From: Flavobacteriaceae bacterium
GTDB taxonomy: Bacteria > Bacteroidota > Bacteroidia > Flavobacteriales > Flavobacteriaceae
DNA length: 36,009 bases
Direction: 5' to 3'
Assembly: GCA_002862645.1 (NCBI GenBank)
Contig: PKDQ01000006.1
Span: 1 to 36,009, forward strand
The notes below the pieces were generated by a model. The model ran no database searches. It worked only from the letters and a program-made list of their open reading frames with translations, and was not told the DNA's origin. Positions 3,865-36,009 of this stretch are shown in pieces. The position numbers and the translations under genes are program-made. Each line of letters begins with the position of its first letter. Position 1 is the stretch's first letter.

Positions 3865-4119
3865 ATGTTAGTAGAACAACTATTTATATCGGAAAAAAAG
3901 AGAACTGTATCTAAATCCAAAGAAGGATGGTCTAGATCATTACTCAAGTCTATGAGCTGGCGTATAATTGGCACACTAGACACCATTATTATTAGTTATG
4001 TCATCACAGGAGAGATTTCTTTTGCGCTTTCTATTGGCGGAATTGAATTAGTGACAAAAATGATGCTCTATGTAGCCCATGAGCGCCTGTGGAACAAGGT
4101 AAACTGGGGGAAAAAGTGA
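3865..4119 (+). CDS. DUF2061 small membrane protein
   Basis: This 84-residue protein shows the DUF2061 pattern: basic N-terminus, then SLLKSMSWRIIGTLDTIIISYVITG with a first hydrophobic segment at about 37-51, a second at about 54-74 (FALSIGGIELVTKMMLYVAHERLW), and a basic tail. It should sit in the inner membrane with two short hydrophobic helices. AAGGA lies a few bases before the ATG. Its stop codon overlaps the GTG start of cysH (GTGA), so it is the first gene of the sulfate-assimilation operon. DUF2061 genes often accompany cysteine-biosynthesis genes, but I know of no defined activity. A role in sulfate or sulfite transport or in assembly is only a guess. Confidence 0.85.
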   Translation: MLVEQLFISEKKRTVSKSKEGWSRSLLKSMSWRIIGTLDTIIISYVITGEISFALSIGGIELVTKMMLYVAHERLWNKVNWGKK

Positions 4120-4826
4120 GCACACAAAAAGTAAAAGTGCTTAACAAGCTTCTAGAAGCAACAACAAGCCTAGAAGAACTATTTACTTTCCTAATTGAAC
4201 AACAATTGGGACAACTTGTATTTTCCACTTCTCTAGGTCAAGAAGACCAAGTATTGACACATCACATTGGAACAAATGCATTACCCATATCAGTTTTTAC
4301 ACTAGACACCGGGCGGTTGTTTCAAGAAACCTACGATGTACTTGCATCAACCCAACAAAAATTTAAACTTCCCATTAAAGTTTATACTCCAAATCACGAA
4401 GCCGTTTCGGAACTGGTCACCATAAAAGGGCCTAATAGCTTTTACGAATCGATTGAAAACCGAAAAGAATGTTGTGCTGTTCGTAAAATAGAACCGCTAA
4501 AACGAGCTTTGAAAGGAAATACTGTCTGGATAACCGGGCTAAGACAAGAACAATCTCAAAACAGAGCTGACTTAGCATTTTTTGAATATGATGAAGCGTT
4601 TAACATCATCAAATTCAACCCCTTACTGTACTGGACATTAGAAGATATTACAACATATTTAAACCATAATAAGGTTCCGCAAAACAGCCTTCATGAAAAA
4701 GGCTTTGTCAGCATTGGATGTGCACCTTGCACTAGGGCCATAGCACCTGGTGAAGACATACGCGCAGGAAGATGGTGGTGGGAATCCAGCAAAAAAGAAT
4801 GTGGACTGCATATAACGAAATCATGA
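4116..4826 (+). CDS. cysH: Assimilatory APS reductase (thioredoxin-dependent)
   Basis: This cytosolic enzyme reduces adenylyl sulfate to sulfite and AMP. The 236-residue protein has the CysH fold with FSTSLGQEDQV near the start and TGLRQEQS in the middle. It carries the cysteine set of the 4Fe-4S APS-reducing class: CC at 119-120 (ECCAVRKIEPL) and CxxC at 202/205 (GCAPCTRAI). The catalytic Cys is at 229 in KECGLH. This predicts APS rather than PAPS as substrate, consistent with the absence of a CysC kinase domain next door. I chose the GTG at 4116 because it overlaps the DUF2061 stop (GTGA) and follows a G-rich stretch; another GTG 27 bases upstream is possible. The end overlaps cysD (ATGA). 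Confidence 0.93.
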   Translation: MSTQKVKVLNKLLEATTSLEELFTFLIEQQLGQLVFSTSLGQEDQVLTHHIGTNALPISVFTLDTGRLFQETYDVLASTQQKFKLPIKVYTPNHEAVSELVTIKGPNSFYESIENRKECCAVRKIEPLKRALKGNTVWITGLRQEQSQNRADLAFFEYDEAFNIIKFNPLLYWTLEDITTYLNHNKVPQNSLHEKGFVSIGCAPCTRAIAPGEDIRAGRWWWESSKKECGLHITKS

Positions 4827-5713
4827 CTATACTAAAACAATTAGAAGAAGAATCCATTTATATAATTAGAGAAGTAGCCGGGCAATTTAACAATCCCTGT
4901 TTGCTGTTCTCTGGGGGAAAAGATTCCATCACCTTATTACACTTGGCCCAAAAGGCATTTGCTCCAGCCAGCATTCCATTTCCATTGGTGCACATTGACA
5001 CAGGGCATAATTTTCCAGAAACCATTGCACTTCGCGATAAGCTAGTAGCAAAACACGGGCTTCGGTTAATTGTTGGAAGCGTTCAGAACGATATTGACGC
5101 AGGAAACGTAGTTGAGGAAAAAGGAAGACACGCCAGCAGGAACAGTTTGCAAACTACTACCCTACTCAACACCATTGAAGAAAATAAATTTGATGCCTGT
5201 ATGGGTGGCGCACGCCGTGACGAAGAAAAAGCACGTGCTAAGGAACGTGTTTTTTCTGTTCGAGATGACTTTGGTCAGTGGAATGAAAAACTACAAAGGC
5301 CAGAACTTTTTGACATGCTAAACGGTTTGATACACAACGGAGAGAACGTAAGAGTTTTTCCTATTAGCAACTGGACAGAATTAGACGTTTGGTACTACAT
5401 ACGCCAAGAAAACTTAGAGATCCCCTCTATCTATTATGCACACAAACGAGAAATATTCAAACGCGATAATCAATGGATGCCCGTATCGGACTATGTAAAA
5501 GTGGCGGAAAAGGATGAACGCAAACACACCTCAGTGCGTTTTCGGACTGTTGGTGACATGAGTTGTACGGCAGCTGTTTTATCAGAAGCAACTGAATTAG
5601 ATAATATTATAGCTGAAATTGGAGGATCCAATTTCTCAGAACGAGGAGCACGTATGGACGATAAACGTTCAGAAGGTGCTATGGAAGAACGAAAAAAAGT
5701 AGGGTATTTTTAA
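4823..5713 (+). CDS. cysD: Sulfate adenylyltransferase subunit 2
   Basis: This is the catalytic ATP-sulfurylase subunit, which makes APS from ATP and sulfate together with the GTPase CysN. From the ATG at 4823 it has 296 residues, close to the roughly 300 of E. coli CysD. The PP-loop SGGKDS is at 30-35, followed by HIDTGHNFPET, GGARRDEEKARAKER, FPISNWTELDVWYYI and the closing GAMEERKKVGYF, all conserved in CysD. The reading frame is open upstream to 4772, but the ATG at 4823 overlaps the cysH stop as ATGA and gives the normal N-terminus, so translational coupling is likely. It is followed by cysN after a single base. No sign of damage. Confidence 0.95.
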   Translation: MTILKQLEEESIYIIREVAGQFNNPCLLFSGGKDSITLLHLAQKAFAPASIPFPLVHIDTGHNFPETIALRDKLVAKHGLRLIVGSVQNDIDAGNVVEEKGRHASRNSLQTTTLLNTIEENKFDACMGGARRDEEKARAKERVFSVRDDFGQWNEKLQRPELFDMLNGLIHNGENVRVFPISNWTELDVWYYIRQENLEIPSIYYAHKREIFKRDNQWMPVSDYVKVAEKDERKHTSVRFRTVGDMSCTAAVLSEATELDNIIAEIGGSNFSERGARMDDKRSEGAMEERKKVGYF

Positions 5714-5714
5714 G

Positions 5715-6962
5715 ATGGAGTTAATCAAAATAGCAACGGCAGGAAGTGTTGACGATGGCAAAAGCACCTTGATTGGAAGGTTATTGTACGAAACAGGTGC
5801 ATTAAAGTCTGATCAGGTTCAACATATTGAAGATAAGAGCGCAGCGCGTGGGTTTGAATATTTAGACCTATCCCTAGCGACCGATGGACTACTCACAGAA
5901 CGTGAACAAGGAATTACCATTGATGTGTCACACATTTTTTTCTCCACACCCAAAAGACGGTTTATCATCGCCGACTCCCCTGGACATGTGGAATATACTC
6001 GAAACATGGTAACGGGTAGCTCTACAGCACAAGCGAGCATCATTTTAATTGACGCGCGAAAAGGTATGATTGAACAAACCAAACGACACTTTTTTATTAC
6101 CCAACTTCTTGGGATTAAGCATATCATTTTTGCTATAAACAAGATGGATTTGGTTGATTACAAGCAAAAGGTTTATGAAGAAATTAAGGCAACCCTAAGC
6201 GACCTAGTTGACAAACACGGAAATAAGGATGTAAGTTATCATTATATCCCACTCTCGGCACTTTACAATGATAATGTTGTGAACCATTCAAAAAAGCTAG
6301 CGTGGTATGAAGGAGCAGCCTTACTTGACTTGATGGATGCAATTCCATTAGAAAACAACAAAGCGAATGATGGTGTATTCCAAATTCAATATGTCATTCG
6401 CCCAAAACAAGAAGCCTTTCACGATTATCGCGGTTTTGCAGGAAATGTCCGCACAGGGGGCTTTAGCGTTGGAGATGCTATCAGCATCCATCCATCAGGA
6501 AGAAAAACCCTTATCAAAAAAATTGAAAAATACGGTATTGCTGTTGATCGTGTGTCAGCCGGTGAAAATGCAACATTGCTTTTGATGGATGAAATAGACG
6601 CCTCTAGAGGAGATAGTATTCTAAATAAGCGTGCCAATATCAATAAAGGTAAAAGCATTAGCGCAACCTTCTGTTGGATGCAAGACAACCCCTTAACGCC
6701 CGGGAACAAATATTGGCTCCAACAAGGGGTTCAGCGCAGCTTGGTAAAAGTGCAAAGTGTTCGCTCCAAAATTGACTTGGAAGCTTTGGAACAAAGCCAA
6801 ACCAATCAATTGGGGCTTAACGATATTGGAATAGCTGCGTTGGCTTTGGCACAACCCCTTTTCACTAAGCCATATAAAGAAAATCCTTCTCTAGGATCAT
6901 TTATACTCATAGATACTCAAACCTTTAACACCGCTGGTGTTGGATTTATCGAAACAACATGA
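5715..6962 (+). CDS. cysN: Sulfate adenylyltransferase subunit 1 (GTPase)
   Basis: This EF-Tu-like GTPase drives APS synthesis by CysD. The 415-residue protein shows the G1 loop GSVDDGKST at 10-18, the switch region GITIDVSHIFF at 66-76, G3 DSPGH at 87-91 and G4 NKMD at 142-145. Translation-factor beta-barrel domains follow at about 210-410. The length fits a CysN without a fused CysC APS kinase, consistent with an APS-using CysH. It begins one base after cysD. Its stop overlaps the start of a sulfite reductase remnant (ATGA at 6959-6962), which shows that the operon once continued in the same tightly coupled way. Confidence 0.95.
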   Translation: MELIKIATAGSVDDGKSTLIGRLLYETGALKSDQVQHIEDKSAARGFEYLDLSLATDGLLTEREQGITIDVSHIFFSTPKRRFIIADSPGHVEYTRNMVTGSSTAQASIILIDARKGMIEQTKRHFFITQLLGIKHIIFAINKMDLVDYKQKVYEEIKATLSDLVDKHGNKDVSYHYIPLSALYNDNVVNHSKKLAWYEGAALLDLMDAIPLENNKANDGVFQIQYVIRPKQEAFHDYRGFAGNVRTGGFSVGDAISIHPSGRKTLIKKIEKYGIAVDRVSAGENATLLLMDEIDASRGDSILNKRANINKGKSISATFCWMQDNPLTPGNKYWLQQGVQRSLVKVQSVRSKIDLEALEQSQTNQLGLNDIGIAALALAQPLFTKPYKENPSLGSFILIDTQTFNTAGVGFIETT

Positions 6963-7039
6963 AAAGTTTTAGGAACGAAGTTGAATATTCAGTATTTGAA
7001 CATGACATACTGGAGCTTGAACGTAAAGTTTTTGGGTAA
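6959..7039 (+). pseudogene. Remnant of ferredoxin-type sulfite/nitrite reductase (N-terminus)
   Basis: An ATG overlapping the cysN stop opens a 26-codon frame beginning MKSFRNEVEY and continuing DILELERKV before a TAA. This strongly resembles the opening of Bacteroidota sulfite/nitrite reductases (a pattern like M-x-SFRTEIE...VxKDIIxLERKI, recalled from the family). The remaining roughly 670 codons, with the siroheme and 4Fe-4S cysteines, are absent, and the next recognisable sequence belongs to a different gene. I read this as a deletion that removed nearly all of the gene. The tiny frame could still be translated by coupling, but cannot be an enzyme. Confidence 0.75.
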
Positions 7040-7080
7040 CTACAGCTTATACATGCGATGGAAAACCCTCTGAAAACATA

Positions 7081-7336
7081 CGCCATGCAGCTGAATCATC
7101 AGCTAAGGTTGTTATTCTAATAGGCATAACACACTTAGAGAAGATCATGAATATTTTTAGCAAACACAAACGGCACTAACTGTTCCGTAGGCATTGTTCA
7201 AAACGGAACACTAAAGAACTAAAAATGGGTAACTAGAAAGCTAGAAAACATTACTGATATTTTAAAGAAAGAATGCATACGTAATCCAGCCACGGTATTT
7301 GTTGGCCCAGCATTTGTAGACAGAACCTCAATGTAG
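7081..7336 (+). pseudogene. Remnant of uroporphyrinogen-III C-methyltransferase (C-terminus)
   Basis: In one frame the sequence reads RHAAESSAKVVILIGITHLE and on to NIFSKHK. After a frameshift near 7170 it reads CSVGIVQNGTLKN, hits a stop, and goes on with LENITDILKKE, NPATVFVGPAFVDR and a final TAG. This is the C-terminal third of the SUMT/CobA family (HAAxSxATVVILMGMxxL ... PVAIIQNGT ... NPAIIVIGEVV). The N-terminal part is missing. The enzyme would methylate uroporphyrinogen III to precorrin-2, the first step to siroheme, the cofactor of sulfite reductase. Frameshift, internal stop and truncation make it non-functional. Its 3' end lies just before the siroheme synthase remnant, as in intact operons of related bacteria. 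Confidence 0.8.
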
Positions 7337-7362
7337 AACAACCACCAAGCTTTTGCATTGGC

Positions 7363-7734
7363 ATGAACATCCTCTACCCGATTTTTTTAAAAACAAAAAG
7401 ATTGTAATCGCCACAACAAATAACCCAAAAGTGAATGATCGCGGGAATAAACTTTGTCGAAAAAAGCACATTTTAGTCAATTTGGCAGACAAACCGGCAA
7501 GCTGGGATTTCTATTTGGGGGAGGAAACCTTATAATTACCATTTCCACAAACGGAAAATCACCTACTTTAGCAAAACGTTTATGACAGTGGTTAGAAGCA
7601 TTTTTGTCATAAGAAACCGTTGCATTGTTCGATATGATTTACGTCTATCGAAACAAGTTAAAAGGAGATTTTTGTGCAAAAAGTTTTAGCAATGAATAAA
7701 ATTAACAGAAAAACTAATCGAGCTAGATGATTAA
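7363..7734 (+). pseudogene. Remnant of precorrin-2 dehydrogenase/sirohydrochlorin ferrochelatase
   Basis: Pieces of a siroheme synthase of the CysG-N/Met8 type are spread over changing frames. They run: MNILYPIFLKTK (start), a jump, then NKKIVIATTNNPKVN, RKKHILVNLADKPAS, DFYLGEET, a shift to ITISTNGKSPTLAKRL and a stop, QWLEAFLS and a stop, VYRNKLKGDF, and LTEKLIELDD with TAA at 7732-7734. In the family the NAD-binding Rossmann loop lies between the first two pieces and is deleted here. The last codons overlap the ATG of the FNR gene, preserving the old operon junction. The pieces are still easy to read, so decay looks fairly recent. The longest open stretch, at 7353-7535, should not be annotated as a gene. 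Confidence 0.85.
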
Positions 7735-8761
7735 AACAGACATTATTATTATTGGTGCGGGACCCGTTGGGCTATTTGCGGTGTTTGAAGCAGGTTTAAT
7801 GAAGTTACGCTGTCATTTAATCGATGCCATTCCACAACCTGGTGGGCAATTATCCGAAATTTATCCAAAAAAACCCATTTACGATATACCTGGATATCCT
7901 AGCCTATTAGCAGGAGAATTGGTTGATAAGCTCATTGAGCAAGCTGCGCCATTCAAGCCTGGCTTTACACTTGGCGAACGTGCCGATAATATTGAAAAAC
8001 AAGATGATGGCTCCTTTACAGTAACCACAACCAAAGGTACACAACATCATGCACCCGTGGTAATGATAGCTGGCGGCTTGGGAAGTTTTGAACCGAGAAA
8101 ACCCCTAATCAGCAATATTGGAGACTTTGAAGAAAAAGGCGTCCGATACATTGTTAAGGATCCCGATAAGTTTGAAGGAAAAGATATGGTCATTTCTGGC
8201 GGTGGTGATTCTGCCCTTGATTGGGCCATCTACTTTGCAGAAAAAGGAAGTTTTGTACACCTTGTTCACAGAAGCGACCGCTATAGAGCGCACAAAGACT
8301 CCGTGTCAAGAGCACAAGAGCTGGCTGCTGTTGGCAAAATGAAACTTCACACTTTTGCAGAAGTTAAAGAACTAAATGGAGATGACAATTTAACAGCTGT
8401 AGTCATTCATACTAAAGAAGCTAATACCACTGTTAATACTGAACTATGGTTTCCCCTATTTGGTTTGTCGCCAAAACTTGGACCCATAGGCGACTGGGGA
8501 CTTGACATTGATAAAAACGCCATAGTCGTTGATACTTTTGATTATCAGACCAATCGTCCAGGCGTATTTGCCATTGGGGATGTAAACACCTACCCGGGTA
8601 AATTAAAACTCATTTTATGTGGCTTTCACGAAGCCACGCTTGCCGTACAAACGGCATACAAAATCATCAATCCTGACAAGAAATTTACCCTCAAATACAC
8701 CACTGTGCAAGGGGTGCAAGGATTCGAAGACGAACAACCAAAACAGACCATAACATCTTGA
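7727..8761 (+). CDS. Ferredoxin-NADP reductase, TrxB-like (YumC) type
   Basis: This is a 344-residue FAD/NAD(P)H flavoprotein of the thioredoxin-reductase-like fold that lacks the CxxC disulfide; this class (Bacillus YumC, Chlorobium FNR) passes electrons between NADPH and ferredoxin. Visible motifs are the FAD loop IIGAGPVGLF near 8-17, PGGQL near 40, the second nucleotide loop ISGGGDSALDWA near 153-164 and the FAD-binding GDVNTYPGKLKLI near the C-terminus, where YumC-type enzymes extend and stack an aromatic residue on the flavin. Its start lies inside the dead siroheme gene, and its stop overlaps the ferredoxin start (TTGA). In the ancestral operon it probably supplied electrons for sulfite reduction. 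Here it is intact, so it presumably serves other ferredoxin-dependent steps. Confidence 0.9.
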   Translation: MIKTDIIIIGAGPVGLFAVFEAGLMKLRCHLIDAIPQPGGQLSEIYPKKPIYDIPGYPSLLAGELVDKLIEQAAPFKPGFTLGERADNIEKQDDGSFTVTTTKGTQHHAPVVMIAGGLGSFEPRKPLISNIGDFEEKGVRYIVKDPDKFEGKDMVISGGGDSALDWAIYFAEKGSFVHLVHRSDRYRAHKDSVSRAQELAAVGKMKLHTFAEVKELNGDDNLTAVVIHTKEANTTVNTELWFPLFGLSPKLGPIGDWGLDIDKNAIVVDTFDYQTNRPGVFAIGDVNTYPGKLKLILCGFHEATLAVQTAYKIINPDKKFTLKYTTVQGVQGFEDEQPKQTITS

Positions 8762-9084
8762 GTCTAGATATTAACATTACAGTTATTGACCGTGAGGGTA
8801 CGGAACATGAGTTTGCTGTTCCAACAGATATGAATCTTAACCTTATGGAGGTTTGCAAAGGATATGACCTTCCAGTAGCCGGGATATGTGGGGGTATGGC
8901 CATGTGTGCTTCCTGTCAAGTTTACATACTTACAGAAGAACATTTTGGCGAACGAAACGCCGATGAACAGGCCATGCTAGATGAAGCTTATCACGTTGAA
9001 GAAAACTCACGATTGGGCTGTCAAATCCCCATAACTGCCCAGCTAAATGGGTTGAAAGTTAAAATCGCTCCCGAGGAGCAATAA
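8758..9084 (+). CDS. 2Fe-2S ferredoxin, adrenodoxin type
   Basis: This 108-residue electron carrier has four cluster cysteines at 44, 50, 53 and 88 (C-x5-C-x2-C-x34-C), the adrenodoxin/ISC-ferredoxin spacing, in GICGGMAMCASC and LGCQIPI. The start is a TTG that overlaps the FNR stop as TTGA. The next in-frame Met is residue 25 and would remove the first two beta strands (INITVIDREG), so TTG is the better choice. It is almost certainly the partner of the reductase encoded just upstream. The last 26 bases run into the end of the DUF3089 gene on the other strand. Confidence 0.92.
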   Translation: MSLDINITVIDREGTEHEFAVPTDMNLNLMEVCKGYDLPVAGICGGMAMCASCQVYILTEEHFGERNADEQAMLDEAYHVEENSRLGCQIPITAQLNGLKVKIAPEEQ

Positions 9085-15713: not shown

Positions 15714-15788
15714 CGGGGTGTAGCGTAGCCCGGTCATCGCGCCTGCTTTGGGAGCAGGAGGTCGCAGGTTCGAATCCTGCCACCCCGA
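15714..15788 (+). tRNA. tRNA-Pro (anticodon TGG)
   Basis: The acceptor stem CGGGGTG/CACCCCG pairs fully, with the C1-G72 pair typical of proline tRNA. The anticodon stem CCTGC/GCAGG holds the loop TTTGGGA, anticodon TGG. The T arm is GCAGG-TTCGAAT-CCTGC. The discriminator is A, and CCA is not encoded. A good promoter lies just upstream. Confidence 0.96.
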
Positions 15789-15796
15789 CAAAAATA

Positions 15797-15834
15797 AATT
15801 GGGATTTATGTGTTAAAATCAATGCGTCCCAATT
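15797..15834 (+). repeat. Inverted repeat between the two tRNA-Pro genes
   Basis: AATTGGGA at 15797-15804 and TCCCAATT at 15827-15834 are perfect 8-base inverted copies around a 22-base loop, filling most of the tRNA spacer. There is no T-run after it, so it is not a standard terminator. It could guide processing of a joint tRNA precursor, or be chance. Confidence 0.5.
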
Positions 15835-15852
15835 ATGTTACCGATTATCATT

Positions 15853-15930
<78 letters not shown>

Positions 15931-24556: not shown

Positions 24557-24864
24557 ATGAAAGATCCCAAGATAATAGGTATTGGTGGTGTTTTTTTAAA
24601 AGCAAAATACATTCACTGGAATATTTTTCCCAATGACACAACATACTTCAAACCATATAAAAAAACTTTATGATAAATTACCGTGTTCAATAAATTGAAG
24701 CCTTGTAAAAAAACTAAATAGTATTGGCGTCCATCATTAATAAAATAAGCACTTATTATTACAGCAAGTTTGTGCTTATTCTCGATCCTTAAAGAAATAT
24801 AATAGAGCTGTGGGAACCAAAAAAAGATTTTATCGACACCCTACATGTGCTCACAAATAAATAA
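24557..24864 (+). pseudogene. Broken VOC (glyoxalase/bleomycin-resistance fold) gene
   Basis: The pieces in order are: MKDPKIIGIGGVFLKA (typical VOC start), then after an internal deletion IHWNIFPNDTTYFKPYKKT, then in another frame MINYRVQ, a stop, IEAL, a stop, then KKLNSIGV, and finally SKFVLILDP, a stop, and IIELWEP with TAA at 24862-24864. In an intact VOC protein of flavobacteria these correspond to beta strand 1, the 'NPFPxDTxYF' segment, 'MINYRV.N...LV..L...GV' and the closing 'ILDPEGNKIELWEP'. At least two frame changes, several stops and a deletion of the middle make it non-functional. It ends 3 bases before the rnpB 3' end on the other strand. Confidence 0.78.
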
Positions 24865-24867
24865 AAA

Positions 24868-25153
24868 GCAGGCCATAAGCCGGATTCTGTCGTGCCTTAT
24901 CATTAATCTAGGCGATACATTACTGCAACGCTCAATCCGCCTACCCTCCAACTTGGACGCGCTATCCTAAACGTTGGTTTACATGGCGTTTCACCGCATA
25001 GAGTTTACCTGGTTTCACTACAGCCGAACTGTACTTGCTTTCTGTTGCACTGGTCCTACTCTGATAAATCAAAGCGACGGGCGTTACCCGCTATACTGCG
25101 CTATGGTGTCCGGACTTTCCTCTCCGCCAAGGCGGAGCGATAAGAAGGCCTGC
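24868..25153 (-). ncRNA. rnpB: RNase P RNA
   Basis: On the minus strand the 5' part holds GAGGAAAGTCCGGACACC, the universal 5' half of P4, and the 3' end holds GACAGAATCCGGCTTATGG, the matching 3' part. The ends GCAGGCC and GGCCTGC pair as P1, which sets the borders at about 24868 and 25153, and a T-run follows the 3' end. At about 286 bases it is a short bacterial A-type RNA. It is the catalytic part of RNase P, which trims tRNA 5' leaders. The exact ends may differ by a few bases. Confidence 0.93.
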
Positions 25154-34262: not shown

Positions 34263-35249
34263 ATGATACTTCGTCCTTTATCCCTATTATTTTTATTTCT
34301 AATTTTCTTGAGTTGTACCAACCCAATTCCTGAAACACCCAAAGCTGTACTTGTCATTCACGGTGGAGCAGGTTGGATTTCCAAAAAAAGCGTTTCTGAT
34401 AGTATGGAACAGGCGTATATCAAAACACTTGGTGAGGCATTAATCAAAGGAAGGGCGCTTATTAAAAATGGAGGAAGCAGCCTAGATGCCGTACAGCTTA
34501 CTATTGAGCACCTTGAAGACTCACCCCTATTCAATGCAGGAAAAGGCTCGGTATTTACCTATAATGAAACCAATGAAATGGATAGCGCCATCATGGATGG
34601 TGCCACTGGAGGCGCGGGTGCAGCTAGTGGAATAACTACAATAAAAAACCCGATTCAAGTTGCACGTGCAGTACTAGACCATTCCGTTCATGTGTTTTTG
34701 AGTGGCCCGGGTGCAGAAGAATTTGCAATAGAGCAAGGGCTTAAGCAAGTTGATCCGTCTTACTTTTTCACCCAAAAAAACTATGATAGACTTAAAGAAG
34801 TTAAGGTTTCCATGACCATGCCCAATCAAGAAAAATTAGGCACAGTAGGTGCTGTAGCACTGGATGCAAATGGGAATTTAGCTGCAGGAACATCAACAGG
34901 CGGCATGACCAATAAGCGCTATGGTCGCATTGGTGACGTACCCGTTATTGGAGCTGGTACCTATGCAGAAAATGGCGTTTGTGGCATTTCAGTTACGGGG
35001 CATGGAGAATTTTTTATTCGAAATGTAGTGGCACACGACATAGCCGCGCGTATAAAATACGCAGACCACACTATCGATAAAGCAGCAACAGAAGTAATTA
35101 CTGAGCTGAAAGAAAAAGGAGGTGCAGGAGGTGTTATTGGGCTAGATAGCCAAGGCTATGTAGTCATGCCTTTTAACACACCCGGAATGTTTAGGGGTTA
35201 TATTTCGCTGGATGGCAGTCCTGTTGTAGCCATCTATGCCGAAGACTAA
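34263..35249 (+). CDS. Isoaspartyl peptidase/L-asparaginase lipoprotein
   Basis: This 328-residue N-terminal-nucleophile hydrolase (plant-type asparaginase family) has a lipobox FLSC (Cys18), so it is exported and membrane-anchored. Motifs are VIHGGAGW near 31-38, NAGKGSVF near 91-98, and MDGATGGAGAASGI near 111-124. The autoprocessing site is before Thr194 in LGTVGAVALD, with TSTGGMTNKRYGRIGDVPVIGAGTYA following. Self-cleavage would give an alpha chain and a beta chain with Thr194 as nucleophile. It probably frees aspartate from isoaspartyl dipeptides. Its stop overlaps the convergent stop of the next gene. Confidence 0.92.
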   Translation: MILRPLSLLFLFLIFLSCTNPIPETPKAVLVIHGGAGWISKKSVSDSMEQAYIKTLGEALIKGRALIKNGGSSLDAVQLTIEHLEDSPLFNAGKGSVFTYNETNEMDSAIMDGATGGAGAASGITTIKNPIQVARAVLDHSVHVFLSGPGAEEFAIEQGLKQVDPSYFFTQKNYDRLKEVKVSMTMPNQEKLGTVGAVALDANGNLAAGTSTGGMTNKRYGRIGDVPVIGAGTYAENGVCGISVTGHGEFFIRNVVAHDIAARIKYADHTIDKAATEVITELKEKGGAGGVIGLDSQGYVVMPFNTPGMFRGYISLDGSPVVAIYAED

Positions 35250-36009
35250 GCGTCTACAGTAGCTGCAAGGTTTTCCGACAAGCGCTTATACACACCAGAA
35301 GTTAGCTTTTCACGAATCGAAGAAAAGGCCTCCAGTGTTTCAATTACATCTTCAAGTGTGTGTGAAGACGTTGGAATAAGGCGTAATAAAATTAATCCTT
35401 TGGGGATCACGGGGTAAACCACGATAGAACAAAATATACCATAATTCTCACGAAGGTCTCTTACCAATTCCATCGCTTCTAAAACACTACCTTTTAGATA
35501 GACAGGCGTAACACAACTTTGTGTGGTGCCAATGTCAAATCCGCGTTCTTTTAAACCTGACTGAAGCGAATTCACGTTTTCCCAAAGCTTGGCTTTTAAC
35601 TCAGGCATGGTACGCAACATCTCTAATCTTTTCAATGCACCTTTAACCAATACCATTTGCAATGACTTGGCAAATACTTGTGAACGCATATTGTATTTCA
35701 TGAAGTCCATGATTTCCTTGTCACCAGCGATAAAAGCGCCTGTGCTTGCCATAGACTTAGCAAATGTGGCAAAGTAAACATCAATATCGTCCATAACGCC
35801 TTGCTCCTCTCCTGCCCCAGCACCCGTTGCCCCTAGGGTCCCGAAGCCATGGGCATCATCAACCAAAAAACGAAATCTGTACTTTTCTTTGAGGGCAGCA
35901 ATTTCACGTAAACGTCCTTGTTCGCCACGCATACCAAATACACCTTCAGAAATAACCAAAATACCACCACCAGTTTCATTGGCTACACGTGTGGCACGTT
36001 GTAGATTTT
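35246..36009 (-). CDS. Serine palmitoyltransferase-like PLP enzyme, partial (5' end outside window)
   Basis: This alpha-oxoamine synthase is cut by the right edge, with about 253 C-terminal residues present. The visible part begins NLQRATRVANETGGGILVIS and includes EGVFGMRGE, the PLP-binding VDDAHGFGTLGATGAG and the Schiff-base Lys in ATFAKSMAS. These fit the Bacteroidota serine palmitoyltransferase group, which starts sphingolipid synthesis; relatives make the sulfonolipid precursor 3-ketocapnine from cysteate, and glycine C-acetyltransferase is a third option. The frame continues beyond the edge; a start near 35959 would be internal. The stop codon shares bases with the convergent peptidase stop. 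Confidence 0.85.
   Translation of the reverse strand, partial: NLQRATRVANETGGGILVISEGVFGMRGEQGRLREIAALKEKYRFRFLVDDAHGFGTLGATGAGAGEEQGVMDDIDVYFATFAKSMASTGAFIAGDKEIMDFMKYNMRSQVFAKSLQMVLVKGALKRLEMLRTMPELKAKLWENVNSLQSGLKERGFDIGTTQSCVTPVYLKGSVLEAMELVRDLRENYGIFCSIVVYPVIPKGLILLRLIPTSSHTLEDVIETLEAFSSIREKLTSGVYKRLSENLAATVDA

Follow-up and report, generated by a model that had tools for sequence, protein, structure and literature searches.

The window described here is a 36,009-nucleotide contig (PKDQ01000006.1) of a Flavobacteriaceae draft genome (GCA_002862645.1). It carries a sulfate-assimilation operon in which the genes leading from sulfate to sulfite (cysH, cysD and cysN) are intact, and those for siroheme sulfite reductase (SiR), for the uroporphyrinogen-III methyltransferase CobA and for siroheme synthase (SirC) survive only as relics. 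The best explanation as a whole, to which we assign a probability of about 0.5, is that sulfate is reduced only as far as sulfite, for use in making sulfonolipids. According to this explanation, an ancestral operon would have carried sulfate to sulfide by means of CysDN, CysH, SiR, CobA, SirC, an FNR-like protein and a ferredoxin. Deletions in the lineage of the window genome would have removed SiR and the siroheme genes, and reduced sulfur would then presumably be obtained by uptake from organic sources. CysDN and CysH would stay under purifying selection since sulfite itself is needed: the cysteate synthase CapA would join sulfite to a serine derivative to yield cysteate, and a cysteate fatty acyltransferase (CFAT) would couple this product with a fatty acid, thereby initiating sulfonolipid (capnine) synthesis.

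A dead reductase module inside an intact operon

The operon begins with a DUF2061 gene and ends with genes for an FNR-like protein and a ferredoxin, and a CFAT gene is cut by the far end of the contig:

3865..4119, plus strand: DUF2061 membrane protein, at the head of the operon (PF09834, 77 bits)
4089..4826, plus strand: cysH, adenosine 5′-phosphosulfate (APS) reductase, intact (TIGR02055, 246.9 bits, cut-off 235.3)
4772..5713, plus strand: cysD, intact (TIGR02039, 399.6 bits, cut-off 396.6; homology from 4823)
5715..6962, plus strand: cysN, intact (TIGR02034, 463.5 bits, cut-off 336.1)
6959..7034, plus strand: siroheme sulfite reductase relic, codons 1-25 of 690 (tblastn E 3e-5; blastn 88% over 75 bp to the sister genome G012)
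7025..7357, plus strand: cobA relic, codons 142-251 of 253, with a frame change (tblastn E 3e-38 to G012)
7333..7731, plus strand: siroheme synthase relic, codons 1-24 and 82-201 of 201, in several frames, ~165 bp missing (tblastn, blastn and alignment to G012)
7727..8761, plus strand: FNR-like flavoprotein reductase, intact (97% to G012)
8758..9084, plus strand: 2Fe-2S ferredoxin-like protein, intact (95% to G012; weak fdx_isc match below cut-off)
35246..36009, minus strand: cysteate fatty acyltransferase (CFAT/SulA), truncated at the contig end (97% to the protein of G002)

The genome that holds the window, designated G000, comprises 1.41 Mb in 35 contigs, of which the window is contig 18, and is 80.5% complete. 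Other genomes and their loci carry G and L numbers, L062 being the locus of G012. Those of its relatives that have names are Flavobacteriaceae or Bacteroidetes metagenome assemblies (e.g. UBA1115 and UBA7446), and names such as TMED81 suggest that they are marine.

All three proteins of the sulfate-to-sulfite gene set score above their curated family cut-offs. Because CysH passes the cut-off for APS reductase and not that for 3′-phosphoadenosine 5′-phosphosulfate reductase (TIGR02057, 150.8 bits, cut-off 254.2), the retained half of the pathway is predicted to end at sulfite. The cysH open reading frame overlaps the DUF2061 gene at 4089, and translation may actually begin a few codons downstream. 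A DUF2061 gene also precedes cysH in those relatives whose contigs extend that far. The FNR-like protein falls below every NCBIfam cut-off, with a thioredoxin-reductase model scoring best, and its label is that of the first-pass annotation, which was made from the letters of the window alone.

That annotation had proposed a comparison with sister strains, and in G012 the operon is intact at the same place: cysN is followed by genes for an NIR/SIR protein (690 residues), CobA (253 residues) and siroheme synthase (201 residues). When these proteins are searched by tblastn against positions 6960-7730, SiR codons 2-25 match at 75% (E 3e-5), CobA residues 142-189 and 192-251 match at 83% and 72% with a change of frame between them (E 3e-38), and SirC matches over residues 1-24 (E 6e-8) and 82-127 plus 126-182 (E 2e-32), its residues 191-201 being located at 7699-7731. 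The intact 3.39-kb stretch of G012 aligns to the window by blastn in three collinear pieces of 88%, 87% and 85% identity (best E 5e-131), and chance similarity is therefore excluded. Missing from G000 are ~2.4 kb between SiR codon 26 and CobA codon 141 and ~165 bp within sirC, and the three forward frames of 6959-7731 contain 19, 17 and 15 stops. Conserved-order homology, broken frames and the loss of codon-position constraint identify this interval as a unitary pseudogene module.

These alignments bear out much of what had been read from the sequence, namely a dead SiR-CobA-siroheme synthase module in operon order between intact cysN and an FNR-like gene, a siroheme synthase relic in several frames with an internal deletion, and, given relics beside intact cysHDN, a locus that has lost sulfite reduction and kept the steps from sulfate to sulfite. 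The start/stop overlaps noted at both ends (ATGA at 6959, and the end of siroheme synthase within the FNR start) are present, and both exist in G012 as well. The SiR and CobA remnants are real, including the frame change in the latter, but their extents needed correction: ~25 rather than ~23 codons of SiR remain, and the C-terminal 43% rather than a third of CobA.

Errors of assembly or sequencing might be suspected of making an intact operon look broken, given that G000 is a fragmented draft of 35 contigs. We consider the chance of this negligible and reject it, since the relic changes are spread across all codon positions and other assemblies, including AG-349-I20, carry other deletions at the same place.

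The intact reductase of G012 carries two stretches each of PF01077 and PF03460 and a HEPN tail. It scores below every NCBIfam equivalog cut-off, with NirA-like models scoring best, and its designation as a sulfite rather than a nitrite reductase rests on operon context, i.e. its position between cysN and the siroheme genes, and not on a family test. The HEPN domain forms the C-terminus (residues 577-642) of this protein, which is encoded at L062 7729-9798.

Repeated loss of the reductase and constraint on CysHDN

The reductase has been lost at this locus in 6 of the 17 genomes of the group (G000, G002, G006, G010, G013 and G016), together with CobA and siroheme synthase in all six. G000, G002, G013 and G016 retain cysHDN, G010 retains only cysH, and G006 has none of the three; neither G006 nor G010 has a CysN elsewhere, their best matches (E 8e-23 and 3e-23) being at the level expected of elongation factors. 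The deletions join SiR codons 1-182 to siroheme synthase codons 135-201 in one open frame in G002, 1-31 to 142-201 in G013, 1-67 to 101-201 in G016 and 32-98 to 129-201 in G010. The fused frame of G002 runs for 235 codons from the SiR start (L064 9579-10283).

Locus trees pair G000 with the intact G012 (support 100 in both the cysHDN and FNR-ferredoxin trees), G016 with the intact G011 (support 96-100 in four trees) and G002 with G013 (support 100 in two trees), and they group G010 with the intact G001, G003 and G007 (support 82-99 in three trees). In the FNR tree G006 falls outside the pair formed by G000 and G012, and in an rpoB tree that omits G012, G013 and G005 it is sister to G000. A tree of upstream genes (TonB receptor and Rrf2) places G000 with G014. 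Such conflicting placements demonstrate that recombination has been at work around the locus. Five losses are counted on the locus trees, and only four should G000 and G006 have one in common; G002 and G013 are counted together, as the deletion of G013 could extend that of G002. Three losses spared CysHDN (in G000, in the G002/G013 clade and in G016), and their breakpoints differ.

Several observations concern the surroundings of the operon. The TonB-dependent receptor gene at 692-2920 has 97% third-position identity to G014 and 65% to G012, and this interval, which lies upstream of the operon, is a tract of recombination with the G014 lineage, whereas cysHDN and FNR resemble G012 more. A recent re-import of CysHDN from a relative is not supported, given third-position identities to G012 of 0.79-0.88 (0.80 for FNR). 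The deletions in the six genomes spare approximately the last 55-60 siroheme synthase codons before FNR (window 7560-7731; L064, L065, L070, L187 and L188), which may hold a promoter or start signal for FNR. The FNR gene of G006 (L187 8111-9142) terminates early, at a stop 11 codons short of its normal end.

Of 19 genomes searched in neighbouring clades, 10 have no PF01077 match, but one of these 10, with locus L131, has a SiR cut by the contig end. L123 (TMED81) has no SiR and keeps cysHDN. L126 (AG-349-I20, presumably a single-cell genome, judging by its name) likewise has no SiR and keeps cysN and the part of cysD that lies on its contig. Two apparent losses, L124 and L125, were rejected and left uncounted, because their contigs start inside sirC and SiR is present on another contig of the same genomes. 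Another Flavobacteriaceae assembly (L155 6576-8630) has SiR split over several frames beside intact cysHDN, which represents either a loss in progress or sequencing errors.

If the old reductase had been replaced, an enzyme unrelated to it, or one missing from the assembly, might still convert sulfite to sulfide. Such a replacement would agree with the selection on CysHDN described below, with the retention of a CysK-like protein and with a genome that is 80.5% complete. However, a search of the rest of the genome, also proposed in the first-pass annotation, found no other sulfite reductase: PF01077 matches occur in 12 of the 17 group genomes, that of G002 being a fragment below cut-off, and none was found in G006, G010, G013, G016 or G000, although at 80.5% completeness its absence from G000 is not final. 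G000 thus does not show a complete sulfate-reduction gene set. Its sole PF00590 protein is one that we take to be the rRNA methyltransferase RsmI and not CobA. Judged from completeness, and if gaps are independent, the chance that a second copy was missed in all of G000, G002, G013 and G016 is ~0.001. With CobA and siroheme synthase also gone from all six loci, we regard replacement as improbable.

The age of the loss in G000 can be gauged by assigning changes at each codon position to branches, with G012 as sister and G014 as outgroup. On the G000 branch, 53 of 501 first and second positions and 20 of 249 third positions of the relic have changed; the corresponding numbers of changes in the same stretch are 5 and 11 on the G012 branch and 7 and 49 on the G014 branch. 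In the intact cysH, cysD, cysN and FNR genes of G000, 44 of 490 four-fold sites have changed, as have 43 of 1894 first and second positions of cysHDN. Because the first and second positions of the relic have changed at a rate like that of four-fold sites in its neighbours, evolution of the relic has been neutral along most, if not all, of the G000 branch since the split from G012 (at least ~60% of it by rough Poisson limits). The loss is therefore not recent, contrary to what the readable remnants had first suggested.

A purpose-written codon model, applied to seven genomes on a fixed tree, yields a ratio of nonsynonymous to synonymous rates (ω) for CysHDN of 0.123 on the G000 branch (95% limits ~0.08-0.18), and ω = 1 is rejected (twice the log-likelihood difference, 2ΔlnL, 75). 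Neither a frameshift nor a stop occurs in the 2841 bp of G000 cysHDN analysed. At the rate of the relic, which has 4 small indels per 750 bp (a script flagged 9, of which 5 at alignment ends were removed by eye), 15 indels would be expected there (P ~3e-7, or 4e-4 when uncertainty in the rate is included). Since CysHDN was constrained while the relic evolved neutrally, the upper half of the pathway was kept by selection after the loss. Sulfite production has therefore been maintained in G000, with some relaxation. Neither the recurrence of the loss nor this purifying selection had been recognised in the first-pass annotation, whose interpretation is, on balance, partly supported.

Comparable estimates for the other SiR-less tips are 0.157 (G002), 0.198 (G013) and 0.089 (G016), against 0.048 and 0.047 in the controls G012 and G014; a third control, G011, gives 0.249 on a short branch for which neutrality is not rejectable. 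Pooling the four SiR-less tips gives ω = 0.138 versus 0.051 (2ΔlnL 41). However, FNR and ferredoxin rise as well on these tips (0.121 versus 0.029, 2ΔlnL 38), so the pooled rise is not specific to CysHDN. The raised value of G013 was not used, because its FNR behaves likewise (0.373 for G013 alone). On the G000 branch, FNR and ferredoxin show no rise (0.060 versus 0.046, 2ΔlnL 0.5).

These values also bear on plain streamlining, by which the whole operon would be lost piecemeal and CysHDN in G000 would merely not have decayed yet. G010, with only cysH, and G006, with none of cysHDN, would accord with such a process. The approximately twofold rise of CysHDN ω on the G000 branch over background (0.123 versus 0.066, 2ΔlnL 7.7) favours it over a need for sulfite, and in the neighbouring clade the SiR-bearing L122 has a lower CysDN ω than the rest (0.018 versus 0.061, 2ΔlnL 18.7). 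However, CysHDN in G000 remains constrained and free of frameshifts and stops despite neutral decay of the relic over most or all of the branch, and the SiR-less L123 and L126 hold CysDN ω at 0.046 and 0.072 (background 0.054-0.055), their branches, like that of L122, being long and the losses on them undated. Streamlining alone thus seems unlikely, though it is far from negligible.

CapA and CFAT as a candidate outlet for sulfite

The CFAT gene lies ~26 kb from the operon. Its full-length counterpart in G002 scores 690 bits to PDB entry 28eh ('cysteate-C-fatty acyltransferase'), 573 bits to 7u7h, which we take to be Alistipes SulA, and 236 bits to serine palmitoyltransferase. SulA is described (PMC9304779) as binding pyridoxal phosphate (PLP) on Lys251 and having a SulA-specific Lys281. 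CFAT is present in all 17 group genomes, and in 17/17, the window fragment included, the residue 30 positions beyond the PLP lysine is also a lysine.

A CapA-type gene adjoins CFAT in 16 of the 17 genomes, with 83-100% identity to that of G002. The 16 open frames encode 349-367 residues without an internal stop, and apparent breaks at the first codons of nine reflect a query that begins upstream of their start. The three proteins scored exceed the NCBIfam cysteate synthase cut-off of 600 (G002 625.6, G006 622.6 and G010 629.8). Sulfite acts as the nucleophile of cysteate synthase. Synthesis of sulfobacin B starts from L-phosphoserine (PMC11211663). CapA would be a candidate sink in G000, where it is presumably also encoded, with sulfate-derived sulfite flowing into cysteate.

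We also drew 393 genomes evenly from the order, each at least 90% complete. A PF01077 match at E 1e-26 was found in 147 of them, and an APS-reductase match at E 1e-30 in 173 rows. The cross-table uses only strong APS-reductase matches (E <1e-50) and leaves out G000. The 25 of 173 matches thereby dropped (E 1e-35 to 1e-47) comprise 3 with SiR, 4 in family f1 and 18 in f7, f8, f14 and f16, and 49 of 288 CapA matches were dropped as CysK-like (f7, f9, f10, f11 and f14; E 1e-141 to 1e-153). The APS model misses some CysH proteins, as evident by the lack of a match in 45 of 95 f1 genomes with SiR (hand count).

Among genomes with a strong APS-reductase match, SiR is present in 50 of 51 in f1, where the remaining one, G419, has CapA and a cysH that, where opened, lies apart from any cysD or cysN match. 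Family f5, which we take to be Weeksellaceae, differs: SiR is present in 37 of 84, and 46 of the 47 without it have a CapA-like protein. All 10 such genomes of f16 (presumably Blattabacterium, with genomes of 0.3-0.6 Mb) have SiR and none has CapA; the only one in f3 has SiR, and one genome in f2 has neither. Chryseobacterium gleum belongs, we believe, to the f5 family. A cysteate synthase has been characterised in that species (PMC11211663).

In all seven SiR-less f5 loci that were opened, the order is cysH-cysD-cysN, with a further gene immediately after cysN in the same orientation. This gene encodes a TauE protein (sulfite exporter family) in all five loci scanned with Pfam (L272 and L275 were unscanned). 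The one SiR-bearing f5 locus opened continues instead via CysK-like and CobA genes to the reductase. Ending at sulfite therefore looks like a stable condition in f5 and not only a stage of decay. Three of the TauE membrane proteins adjoining cysHDN (L270 2436-3743, L271 8821-10350 and L277 3175-4476) carry an N-terminal NAD-binding domain, PF13241, as found in siroheme synthase.

CysHDN might instead be kept for another use of sulfite or APS, such as sulfite export, synthesis of another sulfonate or exchange with partner cells. The TauE-type genes in the five scanned loci would suit such a use, as would the cysHDN-TauE locus of G107, a genome without a CapA match. However, no TauE gene is seen in the window operon, no other sulfonate pathway was searched for in G000, and CapA is the sole sulfite consumer with evidence in the group. 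We give another use only a small share of the probability.

Several findings weigh against the link to sulfonolipids. No CapA was found in G000 itself, whose contig ends inside CFAT. G006 and G010 lost CysD and CysN yet keep CapA and CFAT, and CapA exceeds its cut-off in neighbours without cysHDN at the locus (L120, L130, L132 and L134). In the wider sample, 120 genomes pass the curated CapA cut-off, but all 118 f5 matches lie below it, and a strong APS reductase is missing from 36 of the 118 f5 genomes that encode a CapA-like protein. In G107 and G037, a strong APS reductase occurs with neither SiR nor CapA. The 18 weaker SiR-less CysH matches belong to families without an accepted CapA and, if they are true reductases, would be SiR-less cases without CapA that count against the link. 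Co-occurrence with CapA consequently failed as a discriminating test: CapA-type matches are near-universal among the f1 and f5 genomes examined and stay where CysDN is gone.

What argues for the link is that sulfite-making genes are under selection and one known consumer of sulfite is present, and we judge its chances to be somewhat under one in two. Similarly, a little short of even odds is our estimate for the broader proposition that the upper half of sulfate assimilation acts as a stand-alone sulfite supply for sulfonolipids, kept by selection once SiR and the siroheme genes are deleted: repeatedly so among Flavobacteriaceae with small genomes, and as a lasting condition in roughly half of the f5 genomes with APS reductase.

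Elsewhere in the window are a class A RNase P RNA (24864-25153, minus strand) and two consecutive tRNA-Pro genes (15714-15927, plus strand).

Known systems and the meaning of a pathway ending at sulfite

The window operon matches the intact Flavobacteriaceae operon of G012 (DUF2061-cysH-cysD-cysN-SiR-cobA-sirC-FNR-ferredoxin) in gene order, overlaps and flanking genes, and differs in that SiR, cobA and siroheme synthase are relics. It resembles the f5 CysH-CysD-CysN-TauE loci in keeping APS reductase and CysDN in a genome without sulfite reductase. In those loci, however, a TauE-type gene follows cysN, and no relics were matched where they were opened, except for the siroheme-synthase-like domain fused to TauE.

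The capnine/sulfonolipid pathway of Bacteroidota (PMC9304779 and PMC11211663, each available in part) has its counterparts in the window CFAT with the SulA lysine and in CapA beside CFAT in relatives. The accessible parts of these sources give no origin for the sulfite, and the connection with a SiR-less sulfate pathway is our proposal. In methanotrophic archaea, APS/PAPS reductase-type genes have been suggested to serve the sulfonate coenzyme M, in which sulfur is at the +4 oxidation state (PMC6286981, seen in part). As described in that part, the case differs in concerning archaea, another sulfonate and organisms in which sulfite reductases are present.

Streamlined marine bacteria such as SAR11 have lost assimilatory sulfate reduction and depend on reduced organic sulfur. 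A similar reliance would be expected here, but in SAR11-type loss the pathway is gone, whereas the upper half in the window is under selection. Among the papers listed in our literature search, which did not extend to key capnine papers, none linked SiR-less sulfate assimilation with sulfonolipids. Gene loss in small genomes is ordinary; a variant that we did not meet in the literature searched is a sulfate pathway that selection maintains only as far as sulfite.

Pathway tools would score such an operon as broken sulfate assimilation. If our explanation is true, sulfate assimilation labelled 'incomplete' in such genomes would lack nothing for the task it serves, which would also explain why many genomes carry APS reductase without sulfite reductase. 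The group constitutes a natural deletion series that separates the two halves of a textbook pathway. If the retained half serves sulfonolipids, uncultured bacteria could be predicted from gene content to require reduced organic sulfur and to make a sulfonate lipid fed by sulfate.

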